This document shows positions 14,877 to 36,571 of a DNA stretch of 48,049 nucleotides, piece by piece. Location of the stretch: positions 1 to 48,049 of the IMG/VR virus record IMGVR_UViG_3300009106_000003. One strand, given 5' to 3'. The notes below the pieces were generated by a model. That model did no database searches, had not been told where the DNA came from, and saw only the letters and a program-made list of their open reading frames with translations. Position 1 is the stretch's first letter. Each line of letters starts with the position of its first letter. This stretch comes from a virus. The position numbers and the translations under genes are program-made.

Positions 14877-16472
14877 TTACAATCTTTGTCCAGTCATCCA
14901 ACTTCTCAACACCTTTCTAGCCCTTTTTTCTTGCATACTGTCTATTTCATTTTCAAAATTCGAAGCATCAAATTTATGGGATAATGGCGATCTGGCATTC
15001 ACAGCACTATACCACAATCCGTCCAAAAGGTCATCATTCTTACCCTTGGGAAAGTGAAACATTTCATCAATTAATTCTTGATGTTGCTTCTTAATATACA
15101 ATTTCTTCCTGTTAACCAATGGGCATAACAAAGCTTCTATTCTATCTTCCTTCTTGATTCCGGTAGGCGGTCTTACGCCCCTAGCTATACCCGGCGCCAT
15201 CTTTCTATCTTGCCCAGATAAGTTATTAACCGCATCCTTAATAACGCCTTGCGCACCAACATGTTCCACATTCGCACGCCTTAATGGTTGATATTCCTTC
15301 GCCATTTCAAAAATCTTTTTAGGCATATCGTACAAAGGAAAATGTTCACGAAAGTATTCTATCACATAATAATTCTTATCACTATCAACGCCAACGACCA
15401 TTATAACTTGATAGTCATTCTTCGCCGTAGATTCATAAGCCAAGTCAACACCCATGTAAACATTAACCGGAATAGCGTCTTGCTTTGTAATTATATAGGC
15501 TTGGTTATTCTTAGCAATGAATTGACCATCATAATAGTTAATCCTATCAACCTTAAACTTCGCAGAATCAAGGTCGCGGGCATCATTCATATATTCTTGA
15601 GCAAACTTATGTGTAAGCCCTTGTTCTATATACCCACGTTTAATTTCGTTTAACTTCGTCTTGTTGAAATAGTCAGGCCAAAGAACCTTCCCATCTTCCA
15701 TAGCCCTGTGAAACACAACTTCCCAAGTATATTCTTCTTCATTTTCTTCGGCAGCTAAATACCCATCATATATTGATTGCAAGAATGAATCATAATGAAC
15801 AATAGTGCCAATAAGCCAAACCGAACCTTCGCTACCTTTAGATTCTTCCAATGCGGGTATAACCGTTGACATTACCCACTCTTTAATTTCCGATCTACGT
15901 TCAGGTGTCTTTGTATTCAATTCAGATTCGAAATCGTCCAATACAATCTTAGTATAACGTAAACCCAATTCTGATCTACCACGTAAGCGTTGAGTTGTAC
16001 CTTTAGAAATAATTCTGTCACCCTTAGATGTGGTAATTTCCTTTTCCGTCCACTTTTTTCCAACTATATCTCCAAAATAATAATTAAGGGCAGGATTAAA
16101 TTCTATATGCGATTTAATATATTTCAAATGGTCTACAGCTTGACTTTGTTCTTCAGAAACAAAAGCTATAAATTCGCGCTTACCTTCGGAATTAAAAAAT
16201 ATTTTATGCAACAACGCAGCCTTCACATAGGTACTTTTAGCATGACCCCGAGGAACTATAGCGCAAATCCTTTTGATGTCATCATTAAGAAGAACATCGC
16301 CCAGTCCGTGATGAAACGGCGCGGGCTTACTTTTCATAAAGTCTTCCGCTAAGAACAACTGACCAAATGTTACCAAATCATTTGAAGCTAATTGTAATAC
16401 ACGTTCCTTTTCGCCAAGGTCGGGCGGTATTATATTAAACGTTTCTATCTTTTCTTTTTTCCCAGTCGCCAC
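14877..16472 (-). CDS. terL: Terminase large subunit
   Basis: The 531-residue packaging motor has an ATPase with a variant Walker A, PRGHAKST (residues 74-81), and Walker B KIVLDDFES (about 175-183, catalytic acid included). The C-terminal RNase H-like nuclease follows, with MGVDLAYES near residue 350 and a late acidic motif in GKNDDLLDG near 485. It would pump DNA through the portal encoded next and cut concatemers. Its 5' end overlaps the cyclotransferase-like gene by 38 bases, so the two are translated from one message. Confidence 0.93.
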   Translation of the reverse strand: MATGKKEKIETFNIIPPDLGEKERVLQLASNDLVTFGQLFLAEDFMKSKPAPFHHGLGDVLLNDDIKRICAIVPRGHAKSTYVKAALLHKIFFNSEGKREFIAFVSEEQSQAVDHLKYIKSHIEFNPALNYYFGDIVGKKWTEKEITTSKGDRIISKGTTQRLRGRSELGLRYTKIVLDDFESELNTKTPERRSEIKEWVMSTVIPALEESKGSEGSVWLIGTIVHYDSFLQSIYDGYLAAEENEEEYTWEVVFHRAMEDGKVLWPDYFNKTKLNEIKRGYIEQGLTHKFAQEYMNDARDLDSAKFKVDRINYYDGQFIAKNNQAYIITKQDAIPVNVYMGVDLAYESTAKNDYQVIMVVGVDSDKNYYVIEYFREHFPLYDMPKKIFEMAKEYQPLRRANVEHVGAQGVIKDAVNNLSGQDRKMAPGIARGVRPPTGIKKEDRIEALLCPLVNRKKLYIKKQHQELIDEMFHFPKGKNDDLLDGLWYSAVNARSPLSHKFDASNFENEIDSMQEKRARKVLRSWMTGQRL

Positions 16473-16797
16473 TTTCTATAACCTCAAATATGCTTTCATT
16501 TTGTAACAAATCATCGCCCGCAACATATACCCACGCATTTTCTTCGTTCCCATCATCCATCTTCACGCGTGTCCTTACCCTGCGATATAATCCTTGGGCA
16601 ATTCCTTCGTACTTATCGTACACCCTTAAATCTTCCTTTGAAACATCCAAGACTTCAACGACGACACCCTTCCCTTCGGGGTTATGAATAACCGCAGGGA
16701 ATTTTGTATGTCCCGGATACACAAGCGTGCAATCCGACATTTTCCCCTTATTAGAATCCCCGCGTCTTAGTGTTCCATAAACAGCCAACTTCTCCAT
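16435..16797 (-). CDS. Gamma-glutamylcyclotransferase-like (AIG2/GGCT fold) protein
   Basis: The 120-residue protein begins MEKLAVYGTLRRGDSN, the hallmark substrate-binding loop of the AIG2/GGCT fold. YDKYEG near residues 75-80 supplies the glutamate expected as catalytic base in cyclotransferases, followed by YRRVRTRV. Characterised relatives release 5-oxoproline from gamma-glutamyl amines or peptides. It sits between a small zinc protein and terL. Amidoligases and a class II glutaminase occur in the same genome (23,029-27,592), so it may act on gamma-glutamyl bonds they make. The family call is strong, the substrate unknown. Confidence 0.8.
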   Translation of the reverse strand: MEKLAVYGTLRRGDSNKGKMSDCTLVYPGHTKFPAVIHNPEGKGVVVEVLDVSKEDLRVYDKYEGIAQGLYRRVRTRVKMDDGNEENAWVYVAGDDLLQNESIFEVIESGDWEKRKDRNV

Positions 16798-19017: not shown

Positions 19018-19370
19018 TTGCCCCACACCCTTTCCGAAACCAATTGGGCAATAATACCATAAACGGACAAATCCTTAAAAGCATCTAAGTACGTTTCATC
19101 TTCTACAGCATTTTCGCCACGATGTTTAACAATAATATTTTTGAGCCTATTAACCTTATCGTTCATCCGAATAACCAAAGCGGTCAAAGCAAACATACAA
19201 TCTTCATCATTATCTAAATCGCCACCAAGTGTAATGTTCCCGCAACCATAGTCGTATTGCTTCTTACAAAACAAACGATATTGTTCTTCGGATATATCCC
19301 TAAACCTTCCCATCATAGATGGATAAGCTTTTTCTATAGACTTAACTACTTCTTCGAGGTCTTTCGCCAT
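19014..19370 (-). CDS. DUF1599/Nmad1-like protein
   Basis: The protein has 118 residues, with KKQYDYGCGNITLGGD, then RMNDKVNRLKNIIVKHRG and DAFKDLSVYGIIAQL. This order (Tyr-Gly-x-x-Asn-Ile, Arg-x-x-Asp-Lys-x-x-Arg-Leu, Glu ... Asp-Leu-x-x-Tyr) fits the helical DUF1599 family, named nucleotide modification associated domain 1, common in phages. Fold relatives include MazG-type nucleotide-binding proteins. It overlaps the metallopeptidase-like gene by 25 bases. The biochemical role in this phage is not known. Confidence 0.6.
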   Translation of the reverse strand: MAKDLEEVVKSIEKAYPSMMGRFRDISEEQYRLFCKKQYDYGCGNITLGGDLDNDEDCMFALTALVIRMNDKVNRLKNIIVKHRGENAVEDETYLDAFKDLSVYGIIAQLVSERVWGK

Positions 19371-19642
19371 AAATACTCTCCCACACCTAATTGATGAAAG
19401 CCATTAGCTAAACAATCAATTGTGTTTTCATTATGTTCACAGCCAGTATTACTAAGAATCACATGAATCACTTCATGCAAGAATGTCTCAGCTTTTCTAG
19501 AATGCGCCATGGATTCATCTAGGTATATCTTGCAACGCCTAGGGTCGTTTAATCCTAAAAGGTATCTTCCTTCTTTACCTTCTTTATCACCATCCATATA
19601 GTTGATACTATAGGAATGTCCACCAATATCTATTTTTCGCAT
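19346..19642 (-). CDS. Small HEXXH metallopeptidase-like protein
   Basis: The 98-residue protein contains FLHEVIHVIL, a zinc-binding HEXXH helix, with a downstream Glu in HNENTID as candidate third ligand. The size and layout resemble minimal SprT- or ImmA-like phage metallopeptidases. It might cleave a host regulator or merely use the fold. The N-terminal strand region (IGGHSYSINY) is typical of these small proteins. It overlaps both neighbours. Confidence 0.6.
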   Translation of the reverse strand: MRKIDIGGHSYSINYMDGDKEGKEGRYLLGLNDPRRCKIYLDESMAHSRKAETFLHEVIHVILSNTGCEHNENTIDCLANGFHQLGVGEYLWRKTSKK

Positions 19643-20002: not shown

Positions 20003-20097
20003 AATTGAATTTTTCTATCTAATTTCACGGTAGTAACTTACGACAATATAAAATAGTATCCAAGAACTTTTTTTTAAAAAAAAAATAAAAAACCCCT

Positions 20098-20126
20098 TGA
20101 CAAATCACCCGTTTTCGCTTATATTG
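20098..20126 (+). promoter_or_regulatory. Consensus sigma-70 promoter in divergent region
   Basis: TTGACA (20098-20103), a 17-base spacer and TATATT (20121-20126), with an A-rich stretch and CCCC before the -35 box. Transcription would start near 20133 and run through the inverted repeats into the small gene at 20254. The TATATTGTAA stretch also occurs at the terS promoter. Confidence 0.65.
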
Positions 20127-20182
20127 TAAGTATTAAGGTACGAAGCTTTTATATATATTATATATTATATACTAAAGAATAT

Positions 20183-20204
20183 TATATATACTATCGTATA
20201 TATA
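20183..20204. repeat. Inverted repeat, possible operator/origin site
   Basis: TATATATAC, four bases TATC, then GTATATATA gives nine-base arms. It lies between the promoter at 20098 and the gene at 20254, a natural place for a repressor or initiator site. Low sequence complexity means chance cannot be excluded. Confidence 0.4.
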
Positions 20205-20216
20205 TAAAAGAAAAAG

Positions 20217-20233
20217 AATATACTACGTATATT
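20217..20233. repeat. Second inverted repeat
   Basis: AATATAC, TAC, GTATATT gives seven-base arms centred about 31 bases after the first inverted repeat, roughly three helical turns. Both share a TATAC / GTATA core, which is compatible with a pair of protein-binding sites. Confidence 0.35.
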
Positions 20234-20253
20234 CAAAAAGAAAAGGATTCGCG

Positions 20254-20403
20254 ATGAACGGAAAAGGCGACCGCAATAGAATCGCAAATATAACCGCCTA
20301 CGAAAAAAATTATGAAAAAATTTTTGGGAAACCAAAAAAGCATAATATCAAAGAAAAAGACGAATCCCTTATAAAAAGGTTGAAAAAACGCCAAATCGCT
20401 TAA
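20254..20403 (+). CDS. Small protein of the GKGDxxR family
   Basis: The 49-residue basic protein begins MNGKGDRNRIANITAYEKNY and has IFGK near residue 23. Small phage proteins with GKGDxxR at the N-terminus and a downstream Tyr/IFGK stretch are widespread and uncharacterised. AAAGGA lies before the ATG and a consensus promoter 130 bases upstream. It stands alone between two noncoding stretches. Confidence 0.55.
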   Translation: MNGKGDRNRIANITAYEKNYEKIFGKPKKHNIKEKDESLIKRLKKRQIA

Positions 20404-20915
20404 ATACGGACAAAACTACGCAAAAAATGCAAAACTGGCACCCAAGTACCTAAAAAACAAAAAAGTCCCGTATTACCCCAAAATATCGCCAAAAAACGAT
20501 ATTCCTATTTTATATCATATCCCTAATTTATTAGATATCGCACAAAGCTGTTAAAATATCTTGGTTTGTATATTATATATTATTATATTTATATAGCTTA
20601 AAGATAAGATAAAAGCTAATTTCACACATATCCCCCTTTCAAAAAAATTGCACAAAATTGTGTGTAGGCTTTTTATCGCCCTGCCGTACCCCCCGTCTCC
20701 TTCTTTGGATTTGCTCTTTTTAGTTAGAAAATCTGTATTTATGTTTTTAGACTCCATCAGTTGAATATCTGATAAGAATTTACCAAGCTTTACAAATTGT
20801 AAAGAATTTAACTTTTTGTTAATTGTCGGCCTTTATATATTTATTTTATTTATTTAGTAAAAATATCTTGCTTTTTTCATTTTTTTATTGTATGGAAACT
20901 TTTTTAAAAAAAGAC
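20404..20915. other. Noncoding AT-rich stretch
   Basis: About 510 bases without a convincing gene. It contains several TA-rich runs (around 20565-20595), poly-A/T tracts (20870-20910) and a leftward 68-codon frame without a ribosome binding site that I do not accept. The rest is plausible leader, spacer or origin DNA. Confidence 0.5.
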
Positions 20916-20945
20916 TTGATTCATATATATTTTTTTTTGTATATT
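20916..20945 (+). promoter_or_regulatory. Early promoter
   Basis: TTGATT (20916-20921), 18 bases, TATATT (20940-20945), with an A7 tract and GAC directly before the -35 box. This matches the layout of the other promoters in the window. It lies 60 bases before the first gene of the rightward block. Confidence 0.6.
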
Positions 20946-21004
20946 AAACTAAGATATATGTAAATATATTGGCTTTTTGAAAATCAACAGAACAGGAGTC
21001 AAGA

Positions 21005-22156: not shown

Positions 22157-22456
22157 ATGAATGATATACGAATGGAGGCAAAAAGAACTTGCTGGAATTG
22201 TGTTTCAGAGATAGATGATGGCCAAGAGTTTGTTCACGATGATAACAATTACTGTACACCTACTTGTATGAGAGATCACACAGGATTGGCATTTGACTCG
22301 GAATCTATAAGGTCAGTTTTAGATGCTGAAAAAAGAGCTCTTGATAGATTAGATAAACCATTGGATTCAGATTACAGTATTGATTCAGTTGATTATTTAG
22401 TTACTAAGGGATGGGTTGAGGCTCTTGAATGGGTGCTCGGCGATACCTTAAAATGA
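22157..22456 (+). CDS. Zinc-finger-like early protein
   Basis: The 99-residue protein has CWNCVSEIDDGQEFVHDD then YCTPTCM (residues 12-37), which looks like a small treble-clef or MYM-type zinc site. A helical, acidic C-terminal half follows. It ends in an ATGA overlap with the next gene. It may be a regulator or adaptor. Confidence 0.6.
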   Translation: MNDIRMEAKRTCWNCVSEIDDGQEFVHDDNNYCTPTCMRDHTGLAFDSESIRSVLDAEKRALDRLDKPLDSDYSIDSVDYLVTKGWVEALEWVLGDTLK

Positions 22457-23028: not shown

Positions 23029-24789
23029 ATGCCACTTTACGAAGCAAAATCAGATGATATAGTTATTGATGCAAGATCTGGCGATGAATTGTTTTCGAGT
23101 TCTTCTGATGGAAAGGAAGTATTCGAAAGCAGGTTACTTAGGTTAGCAGACCAAGAGATTATTGAGGGGCAAGCAAAGTTTTATCCTATCTTTGACATAG
23201 GCGACGAATACGTATACCTCAATTGGTTTAGATATATAATTGTAGCTCGAGATGGAAATGATTTCAGGCCGGGAACATTAGTTGGCCTGCGTCAAGACGA
23301 GAATATAGCGTACAACGGCAAATATATTATTCTCGGTAGTGTTACTGATAATGTTACAAGTAGAGCCAGTAGTGGGCAAATTAGAATTCAGCATCTTAGG
23401 TCAGGATGGTATTGTCACATAGAAGATACTCATTTAGAGGAAAATGGTGAACCTGCCACTTTAGAAACTTATCAGAGTGATTATGGTGATGCAAAAGCAT
23501 TTATACGTCGAGCTTGCAGAAGATTATCTGAAACGGTTGCAGACCTTAGTCCTTGTGTTAATTGTGACACTGAAACCTTTCGGAACCATATATCTTACTC
23601 ATCGAATGGGGCCTCTGAAAGTTTTTGCCCTACTTGTGCAGAATCTGAATATTTTTATTGTTATATATGTGAAAACGATTATACAATAGCAGCTGGGGGA
23701 AGGCGAGGATTGGGTGCTGATAGATATGCCTGCGAAACCTGTTTTGAAACTATGGTATTTACTTGCCATGGGTGCGAAAGACTGCGCATAGATAGTCAAG
23801 GAGGTGATATATTTAACGACAGGCCTTATTGTGGAAGGTGCTATGAGAGTCGCATTGTAGAATCTCTTGTTAACCCACCTTCATCAGTTGGATACTTGAA
23901 TATAGGGAAATTGTATTCAGCTAAGAGTAATTCATTCAAGATAAATCAAAGCAGAACTGTGGCTTCGTTGGAAATTGAGCTTATTGGGGAAGGTTATGAT
24001 GAAATTGGTGGAGTTCCAGATGGATTTTATTCTGAAAGAGATGGTTCTTTATCCTCTGGTGGCGCAGAATTTATTATGCGACCTACACTCGGGGATGATA
24101 TAGGATATAAAATTGAAAGTTTATGCAGATGGGCTTTAGACTATGGCTGGACTCCTGATAATAGTTGTGGAATCCACATACATACCAATGCTCTTGATAT
24201 GGGGGTTCCTGAACTAAAAGGTATGCTATTAGTTATGAGAAGGATGGAAAATTATATATACAAAATGATACCACCAGAGCGAAAACATTTGAGATTTTCC
24301 AAGAAAATGGCCGATGTTTCGGCAGAAGATATAGAAAACGTGAATGGTATTGTTGAAATGTCTAAACTCTGGTATGAAAAAATGGGTTCTGTGTCCCCAA
24401 GCAATAGCAAATATAATAATTCGAGATATAGGGGATTTAACCTACACGCAAGATTTTTACTCGGGACTTTGGAATACAGATACCACGAAGGGTCTGTAAA
24501 TTACGAAAGAATTTATAATTGGACTAAGTTTTGCTTAGGACTAACAGATTTCGGCAAGACATTGATGGATAAAGACAAGAAGCTCATAGGGGCATTTAAG
24601 GATGACTTAGACAGGGGCTTAGATTGGTATTTAGCTGTTATGAATATGTCTTACTTAGAAAAATACTTGTATTTGAGAATGGAAGAATACAAGGAAGCTC
24701 GTGAGAATTATGTAGAGAATCGTGAAGGAATTGAAGTTATCAGCGATTCGCTTCCCTCATGGACTGAAATGGACAGTGAACCTAATTAA
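23029..24789 (+). CDS. Amidoligase (GCS2/GS-like) with N-terminal zinc modules
   Basis: The protein has 586 residues. Residues 1-170 form an unassigned N-terminal region. Residues 176-271 hold at least five CxxC pairs (CVNC, CPTC, CYIC, CETC, CHGC, CGRC) of treble-clef/LIM-like spacing. The amidoligase domain spans about 310-545: LEIELIGEG (E315, E317), ERDGSLSSGGAEF (D338, E347), SCGIHIHTN (C380, H383, H385), the RYRGFNLHA strand and GTLEYRYHEG (E482, R484). These are the signature strands of the predicted COOH-NH2 ligase family PF12224, related to glutamine synthetase and glutamate-cysteine ligase, which join a carboxylate to an amine through an acyl phosphate. The partner glutaminase is encoded next. 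Substrates are unknown. Confidence 0.82.
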   Translation: MPLYEAKSDDIVIDARSGDELFSSSSDGKEVFESRLLRLADQEIIEGQAKFYPIFDIGDEYVYLNWFRYIIVARDGNDFRPGTLVGLRQDENIAYNGKYIILGSVTDNVTSRASSGQIRIQHLRSGWYCHIEDTHLEENGEPATLETYQSDYGDAKAFIRRACRRLSETVADLSPCVNCDTETFRNHISYSSNGASESFCPTCAESEYFYCYICENDYTIAAGGRRGLGADRYACETCFETMVFTCHGCERLRIDSQGGDIFNDRPYCGRCYESRIVESLVNPPSSVGYLNIGKLYSAKSNSFKINQSRTVASLEIELIGEGYDEIGGVPDGFYSERDGSLSSGGAEFIMRPTLGDDIGYKIESLCRWALDYGWTPDNSCGIHIHTNALDMGVPELKGMLLVMRRMENYIYKMIPPERKHLRFSKKMADVSAEDIENVNGIVEMSKLWYEKMGSVSPSNSKYNNSRYRGFNLHARFLLGTLEYRYHEGSVNYERIYNWTKFCLGLTDFGKTLMDKDKKLIGAFKDDLDRGLDWYLAVMNMSYLEKYLYLRMEEYKEARENYVENREGIEVISDSLPSWTEMDSEPN

Positions 24790-24812
24790 CAATAAACGAT
24801 AAGGAGTAACAA

Positions 24813-25997
24813 ATGTGTGGTATTTTTGGCTTTGCTAAAAGAGAAGATTGGCAAGGCGAGACACAAATGACTCGCATTAATGACACACTCACTTACTTAG
24901 CCTACAATTCTGTAGTTAGAGGCCAAGATTCTACTGGGATTTCTATAATTTCAGGAGATGGAAGTGCCACTTACAAGACATTGAAGGCTTCAGATCAATT
25001 AGTGTGCAGTGAAGAATGGGATAATATAGTGGATACTATAACCCCAAAAACTACTGTTGCTATGGGGCATGTCAGACTTGCGACGCAAGGAGAGGTTACC
25101 ATAAGGAACGCTCACCCATTCCAAATAGGGAATGTGGTTGGTGCTCATAATGGGATAATAATGAACCACGAGGAAGTGTGTGAAAAGATAAACAAGAGCG
25201 TGGAAGTGGATTCTGAAGTTATCTTTGGATTGATAAACAGAAAGGAATCAATTCAAGAAGCCCTTGATTTGATTTATGGAGATTACGCAATATCTTGGGT
25301 TAAGGATAATCATCATACCATAAATTTGCTTCACGAAAAAGGCAGGCCTTTATATACAGCGTATTGGAAGAAGGCAAGGTGCTTGTTTTGGGCTTCAACT
25401 TTTCAGATTCTTAGCGAATCCTTGAGGGAAGCTGGGTTGCAAATAAAAGTGAACCATCTTCCAGTCGATGTTGTACATAGCTTTGATACGAGGGAATTTT
25501 GGAAGGAGGCCAATCCAAAAACTGAGAAGGTGGTATCTAATGAAGGTGGATATTGGGGCTATAAGAATAAACATAGTAGCTACGGAGTTTCTAAAGGGAA
25601 CTATAATCGCTCGAGTTATGGATATGTTAAGAACCAATGTCTGTATTGCTGGGAATTGACCTACAATCCTGACAAGATTTGTTCTAATTGTCAAGGTTAT
25701 TCAAGTCTTGGAGGGAACACTTTGAAGTTAGACTCTGATGGAAATTGGAGTGCTAATTGTGAAGATTGTAAACAGAAGAAGATGTACGATGAATTAGTTT
25801 GGATAGGTAGAGCATATTCTTGTCACGAGTGCATCACTTATGAAGACCGAGAAATTGGGCTTATCTGTGATTATTGTGGTGATGATGTTTTGGAGAAGGA
25901 CATCGTGGAAGTGGATGGTTATAAAGTGTGTGGCTACTGCGATGATGCTAATAAACAATATGACAAATATCAGAAGAACCTACCAATTACAACATAA
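24813..25997 (+). CDS. Class II glutamine amidotransferase with zinc ribbons
   Basis: The 394-residue protein begins MCGIFGFA, so the N-terminal nucleophile Cys is exposed after Met removal. Further family motifs are RGQDSTGI (36-43), GHVRLAT (85-91), AHPF (100-103), HNG (112-114) and VDSEVIF (132-138). The glutaminase domain covers about residues 1-220. There is no sugar isomerase, phosphoribosyl or asparagine synthetase domain. Instead the C-terminus (about 268-385) contains at least five CxxC pairs, including CLYC, CSNC, CEDC, CHEC, CDYC and CGYC. It should release ammonia from glutamine for an acceptor enzyme in trans, most simply one of the flanking amidoligases. An AAGGAG site precedes the start. 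Confidence 0.85.
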   Translation: MCGIFGFAKREDWQGETQMTRINDTLTYLAYNSVVRGQDSTGISIISGDGSATYKTLKASDQLVCSEEWDNIVDTITPKTTVAMGHVRLATQGEVTIRNAHPFQIGNVVGAHNGIIMNHEEVCEKINKSVEVDSEVIFGLINRKESIQEALDLIYGDYAISWVKDNHHTINLLHEKGRPLYTAYWKKARCLFWASTFQILSESLREAGLQIKVNHLPVDVVHSFDTREFWKEANPKTEKVVSNEGGYWGYKNKHSSYGVSKGNYNRSSYGYVKNQCLYCWELTYNPDKICSNCQGYSSLGGNTLKLDSDGNWSANCEDCKQKKMYDELVWIGRAYSCHECITYEDREIGLICDYCGDDVLEKDIVEVDGYKVCGYCDDANKQYDKYQKNLPITT

Positions 25998-26005
25998 GGG
26001 ATAGT

Positions 26006-26299
26006 ATGAAAAAGAAAAAAGCTGTTCTTGTTGGAATCGAGAATCCAATAAGAATAAAATCGAAAAGGTATGTAATTAAAATACTGTACAAGAGGGCGAA
26101 GAAAAACCCCTTTCTAAGCAATAAAACTTATGATGAGTATTTAGACTACATAAAAGAACAAATAAGGAACTTGGAGGGTATAGATGTGCAATTTGACAAT
26201 GAAGAGGAATTGTACAATGCCCTTAAAAGTATAGGTTGGCTGAAGGAAATAAATGTCCTTGTCGCCTCCTTTATATTTGCAAATTATGGTATAACATAG
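26006..26299 (+). CDS. Hypothetical protein inside amidoligase cluster
   Basis: The 97-residue protein is basic at the N-terminus and helical, with YDEYLDYIKEQIRNLEG and a hydrophobic C-terminal helix (INVLVASFIFANYGIT). It is encoded eight bases after the glutaminase and nine before the second amidoligase, so it probably shares their pathway, perhaps as an acceptor or adaptor. No sequence family was recognised. Confidence 0.6.
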   Translation: MKKKKAVLVGIENPIRIKSKRYVIKILYKRAKKNPFLSNKTYDEYLDYIKEQIRNLEGIDVQFDNEEELYNALKSIGWLKEINVLVASFIFANYGIT

Positions 26300-26308
26300 G
26301 AGTGTAAT

Positions 26309-27592
26309 GTGCCTAAAAAGAAGTGTTCATTTTGCGAAAAGAAGAAAGAGTTAACTTATGTTCCTTGCGAAGATGCAGATTATTGCGAACATTGTTTACT
26401 TGAGGAATTTGATGTTTGTTATGGTTGCGAGGAATTTGTCCCCAACGATCTATCACACGAACAAGGGGGTGACTGCTATTGTAATGACTGTTACTATGAA
26501 AGATTCGTCGGATGTGAAAACTGTAGTCATATTATGGATTCGGATTATGTATGCTACACTGTTCATGGAGAGGCTTATTGCGATGATTGTTATAACGAGT
26601 ACTACGGTTGGTGTCAAAGTTGCGATAGTGAATGCCACCGAGAATATTTGTACTATCAAGAGGGAACGGATGAATATTTGTGCGAACAATGCTACGAATC
26701 TATAGAAATTGATTTAGACTCGTACAACAGTATTACTATCCGTAATAACCCTGATAATACTTTCGATAAAAACAAATTCAAGAGATTGTGCGGTGTAGAG
26801 TTGGAAACCGTATATAAGGGGGAAGATGCTTCGGATTTGAATGATATCGGAGATGCTCGTTTCGACTTTAGAAGAGTGAGCGATGGTTCTATAAACGGCA
26901 TAGGCGCTGAATGGGTTTCTTCACCTATGAATGGTGACAGATTATTTAACCAAATCGACGGTATGGCCAGATGGCTCAAGAATAATAAATTTTCCACAAA
27001 CAGGAGTTGTGGATACCATGTCCATATAGATGCCAGAGATTTGTATTGGGCAGAGTTGTGTGGTATAGGTATAGTCGGCAACGCAGCTGAAAGTATTATG
27101 TATTCAATGATACCAAAATCTCGAAAAAGTAGTAATTGGTGCAGACCTTCAAAAGTTAGTACAAAGCAGCTCCTTACTGTCAGGGATAACGATGATTTTA
27201 TTAATGCTTGGTATGATGGAGTGAGATGCGGGGCTCCAAGCTTACAGAAATATCACGATTCGAGGTATCACGCTATAAATATGCATTCAAGAGCATATCT
27301 CGGCACTATTGAATTTAGGCATCACTCGGGAACTTTAAATACTGGAAAAATTAAAAATTGGATTACGATCTGTCAATCAATAGTTGAGGTCGGAATAGAA
27401 ATTGGTAATTGCATTAAAGAAGGCAAAGGCCATGAGTTGATAGACATCTCAAAAGAAAGGTTTCTGACTAAAGATGAATTTATTAAGTATCTTAATTTAA
27501 AAGATATTGAAGGATATATAGATAGTAGATTAAATAAACATATAGATACTGAAAATATATATAATAATAAATATATATATTCCAGCCTTTAA
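26309..27592 (+). CDS. Second amidoligase with N-terminal zinc modules
   Basis: The 427-residue protein starts at GTG with an AGGAG site seven bases upstream. Residues 6-128 contain about ten CxxC pairs in tandem treble-clef-like modules (CSFC, CEHC, CYGC, CNDC, CENC, CDDC, CQSC, CEQC). The ligase domain (about 160-385) has CGVELET (E164, E166), SDGSINGIGAEW (D192, E201), SCGYHVHID (C234, H237, H239), the RYHAINMHS strand and GTIEFRHHSG (E335, R337). It is a paralogue of the 586-residue protein; both even share YxMIPxxRK after the His motif. Family PF12224 enzymes are predicted to make amide or peptide bonds. The two copies may use different substrates or form a heteromer. The 3' end is very AT-rich. 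Confidence 0.82.
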   Translation: MPKKKCSFCEKKKELTYVPCEDADYCEHCLLEEFDVCYGCEEFVPNDLSHEQGGDCYCNDCYYERFVGCENCSHIMDSDYVCYTVHGEAYCDDCYNEYYGWCQSCDSECHREYLYYQEGTDEYLCEQCYESIEIDLDSYNSITIRNNPDNTFDKNKFKRLCGVELETVYKGEDASDLNDIGDARFDFRRVSDGSINGIGAEWVSSPMNGDRLFNQIDGMARWLKNNKFSTNRSCGYHVHIDARDLYWAELCGIGIVGNAAESIMYSMIPKSRKSSNWCRPSKVSTKQLLTVRDNDDFINAWYDGVRCGAPSLQKYHDSRYHAINMHSRAYLGTIEFRHHSGTLNTGKIKNWITICQSIVEVGIEIGNCIKEGKGHELIDISKERFLTKDEFIKYLNLKDIEGYIDSRLNKHIDTENIYNNKYIYSSL

Positions 27593-31271: not shown

Positions 31272-31544
31272 GCTAAGTTGAAAAAAACCAAGAAAACATA
31301 TTCTGAATTATCAGAACAAATGAAAGCGTACGAAAATGAAATTGTAATGCTTGATATGGCTGTCCGAGGATACAGAGATCACCTAGAAAGGCTTACATTC
31401 ATGGTCGAGACGTATATAGATATGAAAAAAGACTTGAAAAAATTAACTAAATTCATAGATAAAAAAATAGAGAAAGGAAGTGAAAATGTCAAAGAAAATC
31501 GTTTTGGGAACCAAGTGCAGTCTGTGCCGGAAGAAGGAAAATAA
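31269..31544 (+). CDS. Coiled-coil hypothetical protein
   Basis: It has 91 residues from ATG 31269, mostly a Lys/Glu-rich coiled coil (SELSEQMKAYENEIVMLDMA). It overlaps the next gene by 59 bases, a long but plausible overlap; the C-terminal 20 residues may be less constrained. Function unknown. Confidence 0.5.
   Translation: MAKLKKTKKTYSELSEQMKAYENEIVMLDMAVRGYRDHLERLTFMVETYIDMKKDLKKLTKFIDKKIEKGSENVKENRFGNQVQSVPEEGK
31472..31488 (+). repeat. Junction cassette copy 5 (partial)
   Basis: GAAAGGAAGTGAAAATG resembles the other junctions and supplies the GGAAG ribosome binding site of the following zinc-finger gene, but lies within the preceding frame rather than at its end. Confidence 0.35.
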
Positions 31545-31686
31545 TTACAGAAACATATTAAGCACAACCAATGATGAATACAGGTTGTGTGAACCTTGCT
31601 ATTGCCATTACAATTCTTTAGATGGCAATGGGAGGTATTACTTGCAAAGGGAACATATGAACGTTGTAGGCGATACAAATGGTTAG
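31486..31686 (+). CDS. Small zinc-finger-like protein
   Basis: From ATG 31486, 66 residues with CSLCRKKENNYRN and CEPCYCHYN, two CxxC pairs spaced as a treble-clef or HNH-like zinc site, though no catalytic HNH residues were found. It overlaps the next gene by eight bases. Confidence 0.55.
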   Translation: MSKKIVLGTKCSLCRKKENNYRNILSTTNDEYRLCEPCYCHYNSLDGNGRYYLQREHMNVVGDTNG

Positions 31687-31867
31687 GAATAGAAATTGTA
31701 TCAGATGTGAAAAAGATTACCTGCCTTGGTTCGACGAAGAACTTTGTGAAGTATGTTTAGAAGAAATTTGGGAAGATTCGTCTGATGAAATGGAAAGGAT
31801 GTCGATTAAGGTATTTGAAGACAATCCTTGGGATTCAATAAACGAATCAGAAACTACAGGGAATTAA
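31679..31867 (+). CDS. Small acidic zinc-ribbon protein
   Basis: The 62-residue protein starts MVRNRNCIRCEKDYLPWFDE then CEVCLEEIW. The two CxxC pairs (residues 7-27) form a compact zinc ribbon. The remainder is acidic (EDSSDEMERMSIKVFEDNPW). Could be an inhibitor or adaptor mimicking nucleic acid; purely inference. Confidence 0.55.
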   Translation: MVRNRNCIRCEKDYLPWFDEELCEVCLEEIWEDSSDEMERMSIKVFEDNPWDSINESETTGN

Positions 31868-33576: not shown

Positions 33577-34257
33577 ATGGATTTAAACCGTTCGGAGATA
33601 TACCGTGAAAACTGTATGGAAACTATGTCAAGACTTGAGGATGAGTCAATTGATTTAATAGTTACCGACCCGCCCTACGGAATGAGCTTCGTAAGTAACC
33701 ACAGGAAAAAGAAACATGGTGAAATACACTGGGACAACAATCTAGACTGGCTTGATGACTGGTCAACAGAAGCATGGCGAGTCTTAAAAAACAATACGCA
33801 TATTTATGTGTTCTGCTCCTTCCACAATATAGACATTTTCAAGCAAGCCATAGAAAAGAGTTTCAATGTTAAAAACATTTTAATATGGGAGAAAAACAAC
33901 ACCAGTATGGGCGACTTAGCCGGGGACTACGCACCTAAGTATGAGATGATATTATTCGCATGCAAAGGTAGGCGCGAGCTAAATGGTGGCAGAGACCCAA
34001 ATATTCTTAGATTTGATAGGGTAAAAAGCAATAGGCATCCAACAGAAAAACCGGAGGCACTAATAAAATACTTAATAATAAAAAGCACCGAGCCTAACGA
34101 CCTTGTGTATGACCCATTCCTAGGGTCTGGGACTACAGCAGCAGCGGCCTTTAACTCCTCAAGAAACTACATAGGTTCGGAAATAGACGAGGATTATTAC
34201 AATACATCGGTTGAAAGACTTTTCGACCTAGAAAGGCAGGGTAATTTGTTTGCATAG
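33577..34257 (+). CDS. DNA methyltransferase, DPPY type
   Basis: The 226-residue protein has VTDPPYG (D31-Y34), the catalytic motif of amino-methyltransferases acting on adenine N6 (or cytosine N4), near the N-terminus and the SAM-binding VYDPFLGSGTTAAAAF (from D179) near the C-terminus. The order catalytic-then-SAM identifies a beta-class enzyme. It could protect phage DNA from host restriction. No cognate restriction enzyme is certain. It overlaps the helicase gene by eight bases. Confidence 0.85.
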   Translation: MDLNRSEIYRENCMETMSRLEDESIDLIVTDPPYGMSFVSNHRKKKHGEIHWDNNLDWLDDWSTEAWRVLKNNTHIYVFCSFHNIDIFKQAIEKSFNVKNILIWEKNNTSMGDLAGDYAPKYEMILFACKGRRELNGGRDPNILRFDRVKSNRHPTEKPEALIKYLIIKSTEPNDLVYDPFLGSGTTAAAAFNSSRNYIGSEIDEDYYNTSVERLFDLERQGNLFA

Positions 34258-35602: not shown

Positions 35603-36026
35603 ACCAAGATTTGAAACAAGTAGGGATTTAGCTAATGAAGAATCTCTAATGGAAAAGATATTGAACAGTTCATATGAAAACCACGATGCGAAGAAACTAC
35701 CTCCGCAGTATCATGTTGACTACATGGTTATGAATTCATATGGCAGACCAACTAGACTAATAGAATTAAAGCAAAGAAACAATAACCATAATGACTTTGG
35801 TACTTACATAATCAGCTTAAAGAAGGTTATAAACGGACAAAGGTTAGCTGATTCAATTGGCATACCCTTCGAATTGGCGGTTAGGTTTAACGATGGAGAC
35901 TATATGGTTGAATTGGGGAATAGCCGATCGTGGAATGTTAAGTGGTTTGAAAGAAATAATAATAGAGATGGTTGGGACGGCGAACCTGTGGTTCATATCC
36001 CAATGTCCGAATTTATGCGAATCTAA
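35595..36026 (+). CDS. PD-(D/E)XK-like small nuclease candidate
   Basis: From ATG 35595 it has 143 residues. YHVDYMVMNSYGRPTRLIEL followed by KQRNN has the VDY...E-x-K spacing of a PD-(D/E)XK nuclease core, followed by helices (IISLKKVINGQRLADSIG). It lies between the helicase and a second methyltransferase and could be a nicking or restriction-type nuclease. The match is motif-level only. Confidence 0.5.
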   Translation: MVRPRFETSRDLANEESLMEKILNSSYENHDAKKLPPQYHVDYMVMNSYGRPTRLIELKQRNNNHNDFGTYIISLKKVINGQRLADSIGIPFELAVRFNDGDYMVELGNSRSWNVKWFERNNNRDGWDGEPVVHIPMSEFMRI

Positions 36027-36571
36027 TGTCGAATAATGAAAAAAAGTCCCATATACGGCGAATTTACCCCCCTATATTGGATTCTTGTTGCGGTAGTAGA
36101 ATGTTTTGGTTTGACAAGGAGAACCCGAATTGCTTATTCATAGATAAGCGAAGCGAAACATTAACGGCAAAGGACAGTAGTCAAAAAAGTGGGCTGAGGA
36201 CAATTGAAGTAAAGCCCGACTTGGTGGCTGATTTTACCGAAATGCCATTCGAAAGCGAGCAATTTGCTATGGTGGTATTTGACCCACCGCACTTAAAAAC
36301 CCTCGGGGAGAATAGTTGGATGGCTAAAAAATACGGAAGACTACCAACCGATTGGGAGTATATGATAAGTAAGGGCTTTGATGAGTGCATGAGGGTGCTG
36401 AAGCCCGAAGGTGTGCTGATATTCAAATGGAATGAATACGAAATCAAAACAAGGCAGGTTTTAGACCTAATACCATACAAGCCCCTTTTTGGGCACACAA
36501 CCGGGAGGCAGTCAAAAACAATTTGGATGGCTTTTATGAAAGAAAATTGCAGGGAGAAAGCAAATGACTAA
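36026..36571 (+). CDS. Second methyltransferase, DPPH type
   Basis: From ATG 36026 (TAATG overlap with the upstream stop) it has 181 residues. ILDSCCGSRMFWFD (D19 onward) is a SAM-binding motif I, FDPPHL (D86-H89) the catalytic motif IV. The compact phage family with CCGSRMFWFD and VLIFKWNEYEI is annotated as SAM-dependent methyltransferase; DNA amino-methylation is likely, target unknown. The SAM-then-catalytic order differs from the 226-residue enzyme, so the two are not duplicates. Confidence 0.75.
   Translation: MSNNEKKSHIRRIYPPILDSCCGSRMFWFDKENPNCLFIDKRSETLTAKDSSQKSGLRTIEVKPDLVADFTEMPFESEQFAMVVFDPPHLKTLGENSWMAKKYGRLPTDWEYMISKGFDECMRVLKPEGVLIFKWNEYEIKTRQVLDLIPYKPLFGHTTGRQSKTIWMAFMKENCREKAND

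Follow-up and report, generated by a model that had tools for sequence, protein, structure and literature searches.

A zinc-module-rich amidoligase cassette with a duplicated ligase and a dedicated glutaminase in an uncultured phage lineage

The DNA analyzed here, referred to below as the window, is the 48,049-base IMG/VR virus record IMGVR_UViG_3300009106_000003 (positions 1 to 48,049). Four plus-strand genes occur in it in the order AL1, GAT, g97, AL2 (Table 1), with intergenic gaps of 23, 8 and 9 bp; Shine-Dalgarno-like sequences were seen upstream of GAT and AL2, the GTG start of AL2 being preceded by the ribosome-binding-like 'taggagtgtaat'. The short gaps and these sites suggest that the four genes make up one transcription unit. 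Leftward of the cluster, on the minus strand, are late genes (terminase, portal, head, tail fibre); after it, on the plus strand, are replication genes (exonuclease, DnaB helicase). The terms 'early' and 'late' are assigned to these gene blocks from the layout. A gene for an N6/N4 DNA methylase is present in the window at 33577-34257. Known defence models of PADLOC gave no match, and a search of INPHARED DNA with the whole cluster as query returned 0 matches.

Table 1. Genes and protein regions of the amidoligase cassette (window coordinates)
Feature	Position	Strand	Evidence
AL1, PF12224 amidoligase, 586 aa	23029..24789	+	PF12224 3e-19; invariant catalytic residues (40 relatives)
AL1 zinc region, residues 176-271, six CxxC pairs	23554..23841	+	Cys conservation
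GAT, predicted class II (Ntn) glutamine amidotransferase, 394 aa	24813..25997	+	PF13522 6.7e-16
GAT zinc region, residues 316-376, four CxxC pairs	25758..25940	+	Cys conservation; hhalign to AL2
g97, 97 aa, between GAT and AL2	26006..26299	+	48 relatives
AL2, PF12224 amidoligase, 427 aa, GTG start	26309..27592	+	PF12224 3.1e-22; AlphaFold model; Foldseek
AL2 conserved zinc module, residues 69-128, four CxxC pairs	26513..26692	+	Cys conservation; LIM similarity
AL2 ligase core, residues 156-415	26774..27553	+	E164, E166, D192, S194, E201, H237, H239, E335, R337 invariant
GGACT/AIG2-type gamma-glutamyl(amine) cyclotransferase, 120 aa	16435..16797	-	PF06094; overlaps TerL gene 5' end

Both AL1 (70.3 bits, 3e-19) and AL2 (80.1 bits, 3.1e-22) scored well above the curated cut-off (22) of Pfam family PF12224 (Amidoligase_2). 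AL1 has an N-terminal region without an assigned fold, then three tandem CxxC-x~20-CxxC zinc units and a C-terminal GCS2/GS-like ligase core; in AL2, N-terminal LIM-like zinc modules are followed by a GCS2/GS-like core. Active-site motifs are complete in AL1 (E315xE317, D338GS340..E347, C380G381xH383xH385, E482YR484) as well as in AL2 (E164xE166, D192GS194..E201, C234G235xH237xH239, E335FR337). Residues E315, E317, D338, S340, E347, C380, G381, H383, H385, E482 and R484 were invariant in 40 relatives of AL1, as were the motif E, D, S, C, G, H and R positions of AL2 in its 53 relatives; the exceptions were the G of DGS and the aromatic residue of the AL1 E(Y/F)R motif. Since the catalytic residues are invariant in 40 AL1 and 53 AL2 proteins, neither ligase copy is a dead paralogue; both cores evolve under purifying selection (dN/dS about 0.33-0.39) with these residues kept.

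The AlphaFold model of AL2 (pLDDT 87.4) shows the GCS2/GS fold, as would be expected from the first-pass annotation, which had suggested structure prediction as a check. The best Foldseek match was YbdK (1r8g, E 4.8e-5, probability 1.00), followed by glutamine synthetases and the depupylase Dop; the TM-scores of these matches are modest (0.2-0.4), as is to be expected for a protein with added zinc modules. AL2 is similar to YbdK/GCS2 carboxylate-amine ligases and glutamine synthetases in predicted fold and in the ExE, HxH, R-type active-site pattern; unlike them (identity <=13%), it has the added zinc modules and a dedicated glutaminase partner. AL1 and AL2 align with each other at E 8.8e-75 (hhalign). 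Judged by sequence, the two proteins are paralogous GCS2/GS-fold ligases with full ATP/metal-site motifs, and their family membership predicts that they are ATP-dependent carboxylate-amine ligases.

The protein encoded between them matched Pfam families GATase_6, GATase_7 and GATase_4 (PF13522, GATase_6, 6.7e-16). Its N-terminus is GlmS-like, and a profile search matched GlmS/PurF structures. The N-terminal Cys nucleophile and the glutamine-site residues were found in place: C2, R88, H112, N113, G114 and D133 are invariant in 42 relatives. These are the same Cys2, Arg, Asn-Gly and Asp glutamine-site residues as in GlmS/PurF-type class II glutaminase domains, and the sequence identifies GAT as a predicted glutaminase whose Ntn active site is complete. 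The two amidoligases with intact motifs flanking a class II amidotransferase, and the glutaminase-plus-ligase logic drawn from them in the first-pass annotation, are thus upheld by the Pfam matches and the invariant active-site residues. Unlike GlmS and PurF, GAT has no SIS or PRTase acceptor domain; a C-terminal zinc region is present instead. One could argue from the missing acceptor (synthase) domain that the Ntn protein is an amide-removing amidase or peptidase rather than an ammonia donor, so that the cassette would only swap or break bonds; a related protein was indeed named 'aminohydrolase' (PMC11945000). Two features make this quite improbable: the signature residues of GlmS/PurF-type glutaminases, R88 and D133 among them, and the strict pairing of GAT with ATP-dependent ligases.

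All three enzymes bear tandem CxxC-x17-20-CxxC units with fixed spacing and most Cys residues invariant, which agrees with the heavy zinc decoration noticed earlier. In AL1, 12 of 12 zinc Cys are invariant among five near-clade proteins, and across 40 AL1 seven are invariant and five are conserved at >=90%. All GAT zinc Cys are invariant in 10 relatives, C316, C319, C337 and C340 being so in 42. Among 53 AL2 relatives, C69, C72, C91, C94, C102, C105 and C125 are invariant, and C128 is conserved at >=90%. The AL2 and GAT zinc regions align with each other (hhalign probability 83%, E 8.6e-6), a value that Cys-rich composition may inflate.

The zinc region of AL2 is similar to LIM domains both by profile (best 1.7e-4) and by fold (1ctl, probability 0.98). 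The spacing typical for LIM is CX2C-X16-23-HX2C-X2-CX2C-X16-21-CX2C/D/H; that of AL2 is C69-x2-C72-x18-C91-x2-C94-x7-C102-x2-C105-x19-C125-x2-C128. With its 7-residue linker and all-Cys ligands, assignment as a true LIM domain was rejected, and we characterize the modules as LIM-like.

In a comparison of 24 independent pairs the zinc region changed faster than the catalytic part in 22/24 pairs for AL2 (p 8e-6), 15/16 for AL1 (p 6e-5) and 19/24 for GAT (p 1e-4), with dN/dS of 0.37-0.62 in the zinc regions versus 0.18-0.39 in the catalytic parts. Positive selection was set aside, since dN/dS in the zinc regions remains under 1 and synonymous differences are elevated too. We read the zinc modules as probable surfaces for docking; they may also take part in target recognition. 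If they were recognition arms, the cassette could amidate or gamma-glutamylate a specific host or phage protein. LIM-like modules, protein binders elsewhere, are present on all three enzymes, and fast zinc regions with most Cys fixed would fit a co-evolving binding surface; moreover, GS-fold protein modifiers exist, Dop being among the AL2 fold matches. However, relaxed constraint or recombination explains the zinc-region pattern equally well, and the nearest folds are those of free-metabolite ligases such as YbdK; we regard modification of a specific protein as a minority possibility.

The small gene g97 was always found between GAT and AL2. In line with its first description as a small unknown gene, no Pfam family matched its product above the cut-off, and PDB had neither a sequence nor a fold relative; a weak, sub-cut-off match to DUF5312 was seen (E 0.022 for the window protein, 2e-4 for one relative), and two viral structure models resemble it (TM about 0.65). 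Its own model is moderately confident (pLDDT 76) and mixed alpha/beta. Residues G10, N34, P35, F36, L73 and W78 are invariant in 48 relatives, and g97 was the slowest-changing gene in the close pairs examined. Identity with the conserved 186-aa protein of the LUZ24-type cassette was rejected by profile search. The g97 protein has the look of an obligate new component of an amidoligase cassette.

A fifth gene was found by a search with PF06094, prompted by the gamma-glutamyl cyclotransferases of cassettes elsewhere. The GGACT protein scored 63.2 bits (4.3e-17; cut-off 22.8; 1.1e-17 in the genome search), and its profile matches the human GGACT structure 3jub. The YGTL loop (Y7, G8, L10) and E64 are invariant across the relatives aligned; from the alignment we take E64 as the putative catalytic Glu. 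The gene lies about 6 kb from the ligases, on the opposite strand, and overlaps the beginning of the gene for the large terminase subunit (TerL). It was present in 69 of 69 relatives having >500 bases upstream of TerL and, in those checked for position, was directly upstream of TerL. The first-pass annotation, which bounded the cluster at 23029-27592, was exact in coordinates and gene order; it missed this gene (16435-16797), while the link to AIG2-type cyclotransferases that it named is matched by GGACT in the same phage. Conservation and precedent suggest a functional tie of GGACT to the ligases.

Enzymes of the GGACT family act on gamma-glutamyl amines, and gamma-glutamyl protecting-group pathways include a deprotecting or degrading step of this kind. 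One could picture small-metabolite chemistry: a gamma-glutamyl or amide metabolite serving nitrogen salvage, signalling or as a small antimicrobial, with GGACT deprotecting or degrading it. The GCS2/YbdK-like fold of AL2 would suit this, and no precursor peptide gene was noticed. On the other hand, the module is core to a whole lineage of phages of only about 48 kb, and among the genes scanned there was no obvious transporter or other biosynthetic gene; we see this reading as rather unlikely.

In IMG/VR, TerL has close relatives (198 matches, 80 kept, identity 69-100%). The best matches among isolate phages were about 27% identical for TerL and about 22% for portal, values so low that we make no host inference from them. 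Among genome contigs searched for a host, TerL found none, and AL2 found four distant matches. In an AL2-anchored survey (76 loci fetched with the AL2 family) GAT-g97-AL2 was present in 65 loci, 49 of them also with AL1 and 16 without an upstream amidoligase; the remaining loci were cut at an end or held short zinc-free amidoligases of other contexts. Of 72 GAT-anchored loci, 70 had an amidoligase neighbour. Counted by GAT sequence and with AL2 complete, there were 61 distinct units. Residue scans were done on lineage alignments, the multi-lineage alignments A1 and A2 being too divergent. As the AL1-GAT-g97-AL2 block was found again in dozens of distinct contigs, its arrangement is not due to chance; the three-gene co-occurrence that the first-pass annotation proposed to check holds in nearly every relative. 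The five-gene set belongs to the core of this large lineage of uncultured phages.

These counts cover one lineage, so co-occurrence can partly reflect vertical inheritance. Outside the lineage, PF12224 and a class II GAT (with or without GGACT) are found together again in phages that are not related to it, namely Alcaligenes QDWS535, a Melvirus-like phage, MW202615, UFV-P2, NJ01 and Arthrobacter Shrooms, as well as in L004 and on an Omnitrophica MAG contig. This recurrence gives the association independent support.

In a tree of ligase cores AL1 and AL2 formed sister clades excluding other amidoligases (support 0.949; AL2 clade 0.903), and one duplication therefore gave both; it is apparently old. 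In the GAT tree, 14 single-ligase units form the sister clade to a group of 50 two-ligase units, which also includes one unit with a single ligase. In the simplest reading, the duplication would predate the split of these groups and AL1 was lost later; alternatively, the duplication may have occurred on the two-ligase branch and been followed by fast AL1 divergence. In L003 a pyrimidine-dimer glycosylase (PF03013) gene is found upstream of GAT, at the place expected for AL1.

What could such a cassette do? From the enzyme families, we consider glutamine-fed, ATP-dependent amide formation to be the likely chemistry, with a cyclotransferase that would be able to undo gamma-glutamyl bonds. In the scheme that we favour GAT would hydrolyse glutamine and pass ammonia to AL1 and AL2. 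From a carboxylate, activated with ATP as an acyl phosphate, these ligases would make either a primary amide or an amide of the gamma-glutamyl/peptide type. The enzymes may be kept assembled, or docked on their target, by g97 and the shared LIM-like zinc modules. GGACT, made from the packaging operon, would take gamma-glutamyl groups off amines as 5-oxoproline, thus allowing later editing or reversal of the product. For the target, the first-pass annotation had listed a metabolite, peptide, protein or nucleotide and made no choice among them. Most likely, a peptide of the host is amidated or gamma-glutamylated; it would belong to the host envelope, with peptidoglycan stem peptides or precursors tentatively the leading candidate by analogy. 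The purpose could be blocking of competing phages or tuning of lysis, as proposed for the LUZ24/phiEco32/RIO-1-type cassette. To this whole explanation, an amide-making cassette with a host-envelope peptide target, we assign a probability of about 0.4. Against it are the lack in the window of the ATP-grasp and PF14395 proteins of the published cassette and the placement of GGACT, distant and on the other strand.

One could further speculate about a timed writer and eraser: AL1, AL2 and GAT, docked by the fast-evolving zinc modules and g97, would put an amide or gamma-glutamyl mark on a specific host target early, and GGACT, in translational coupling with the terminase, would erase the mark late, before lysis or progeny release; we think this improbable. 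Amide and amino-acid modified bases occur in other phages and the window has the DNA methylase mentioned above, so that hypermodification of DNA or nucleotides of the phage genome also comes to mind. We judged it very unlikely because the window has no thymidylate-synthase-type enzyme; base hypermodification genes were likewise absent among the window genes scanned, and none of the relatives examined outside the lineage adjoins such genes.

Iyer 2009 and Hardies 2013 reportedly predicted a cassette for LUZ24-, phiEco32- and RIO-1/PSA-HP1-like podoviruses. Two later papers, both citing Iyer and others, give the prediction of a peptidoglycan-modifying cassette in LUZ24-, phiEco32- and RIO-1-like phages (PMC5498523, under the name 'Peptidoglycan Modification Cassette'; PMC11945000), with peptidoglycan peptides as the proposed target of this related cassette. 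Annotations of paired amidoligase and glutamine amidotransferase genes in phages go back to 2012 or earlier (PMC3517423); the first-pass annotation was right in seeing the duplicated, zinc-rich form as a variant, yet the system is less unexplored than it implied. PF12224 and PF13522 were also reported in OM43 (Methylophilales) phages MEP401/402 and in >30 marine viral genomes, their function being left open by the authors (PMC10580990); TerL of MEP401/402 and relatives is about 25% identical to that of the window. The literature searched reported no substrate, product, phenotype or experimental test for phage cassettes of this type.

With the peptidoglycan modification cassette the window shares PF12224, a class II GAT and GGCT/GGACT in one tailed phage, as well as the location, except for GGACT, in the early/replication region. 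A second PF12224 paralogue is found where that cassette has PF14395 and an ATP-grasp. The PF14395 COOH-NH2 ligase family had no match in the window, while five cassette phages were positive; an HMM of five cassette ATP-grasps recovered its own members and L269, with no convincing match in lineage loci and nothing at E<=1 in the window, where a very divergent one could escape. In the published cassette GGCT is beside the ligases; in the window GGACT belongs to the packaging operon, on the strand opposite to the ligases and overlapping TerL. Further differences are the additional gene g97 and the presence of LIM-like zinc modules in each of the three enzymes. The window cassette is a zinc-finger-rich, duplicated variant of the predicted phage cassette, in a lineage that shows zinc modules and ligase duplication built into the system. 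Many phages that are not related to each other have amidoligase cassettes, with their substrate absent from the literature found; identity of the target would decide between host wall remodelling, protein tagging and metabolite synthesis. In comparison with the seven-gene podovirus form, the reduced, highly conserved set of one or two PF12224 ligases, GAT, g97 and GGACT would be easier to reconstitute.

Small zinc-finger proteins are abundant in the phage of the window, with further CxxC-rich examples listed below; the 98-aa protein with a metallopeptidase-like motif is conserved in near relatives, at 65–74% identity. The AT-rich intergenic DNA separates the divergent operons and may hold promoters or an origin of replication. 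The methyltransferase genes lie by that of the DnaB helicase.

Features of the window and of comparison locus L003
Position	Strand	Feature	Match or detail
19346-19642	-	98-aa protein, HEVIH metallopeptidase-like motif	phrog_1233, phrog_13742
20003-21004		AT-rich intergenic DNA, ~1 kb	A/T runs and TATA-like repeats
22157-22456		Small CxxC-rich protein	Weakly VATC treble-clef-like
31480-31686		Small CxxC-rich protein	
31679-31867		Small CxxC-rich protein	
33577-34257		N6/N4 DNA methylase	PF01555, 1.2e-41
35972-36571		Second methyltransferase, weak	
L003:1530-1946		Pyrimidine-dimer DNA glycosylase	PF03013, 9.3e-24

The L003 glycosylase gene lies immediately upstream of the glutamine amidotransferase (GAT) gene, the place held in other members by the first amidoligase, AL1. 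On IMGVR_UViG_3300030708_000851 (80,282 bp; loci L081 and L082) the region from TerL through the cyclotransferase GGACT, GAT and the 97-aa gene to the second amidoligase, AL2, occurs twice in diverged copies, as if two related phage genomes stood in tandem or had been joined in assembly.

Outside the phage lineage, the stretch of interest on an Omnitrophica MAG contig (DDUN01000032.1, 7905-14435) shows a zinc-bearing amidoligase–GAT pair in an element that also has a VirD4-like coupling protein and a RadC-like gene. A few genes past the pair, a patatin-like phospholipase is encoded along with a CD-NTase-like protein; judged by eye from their translations, these two look like a CBASS pair.
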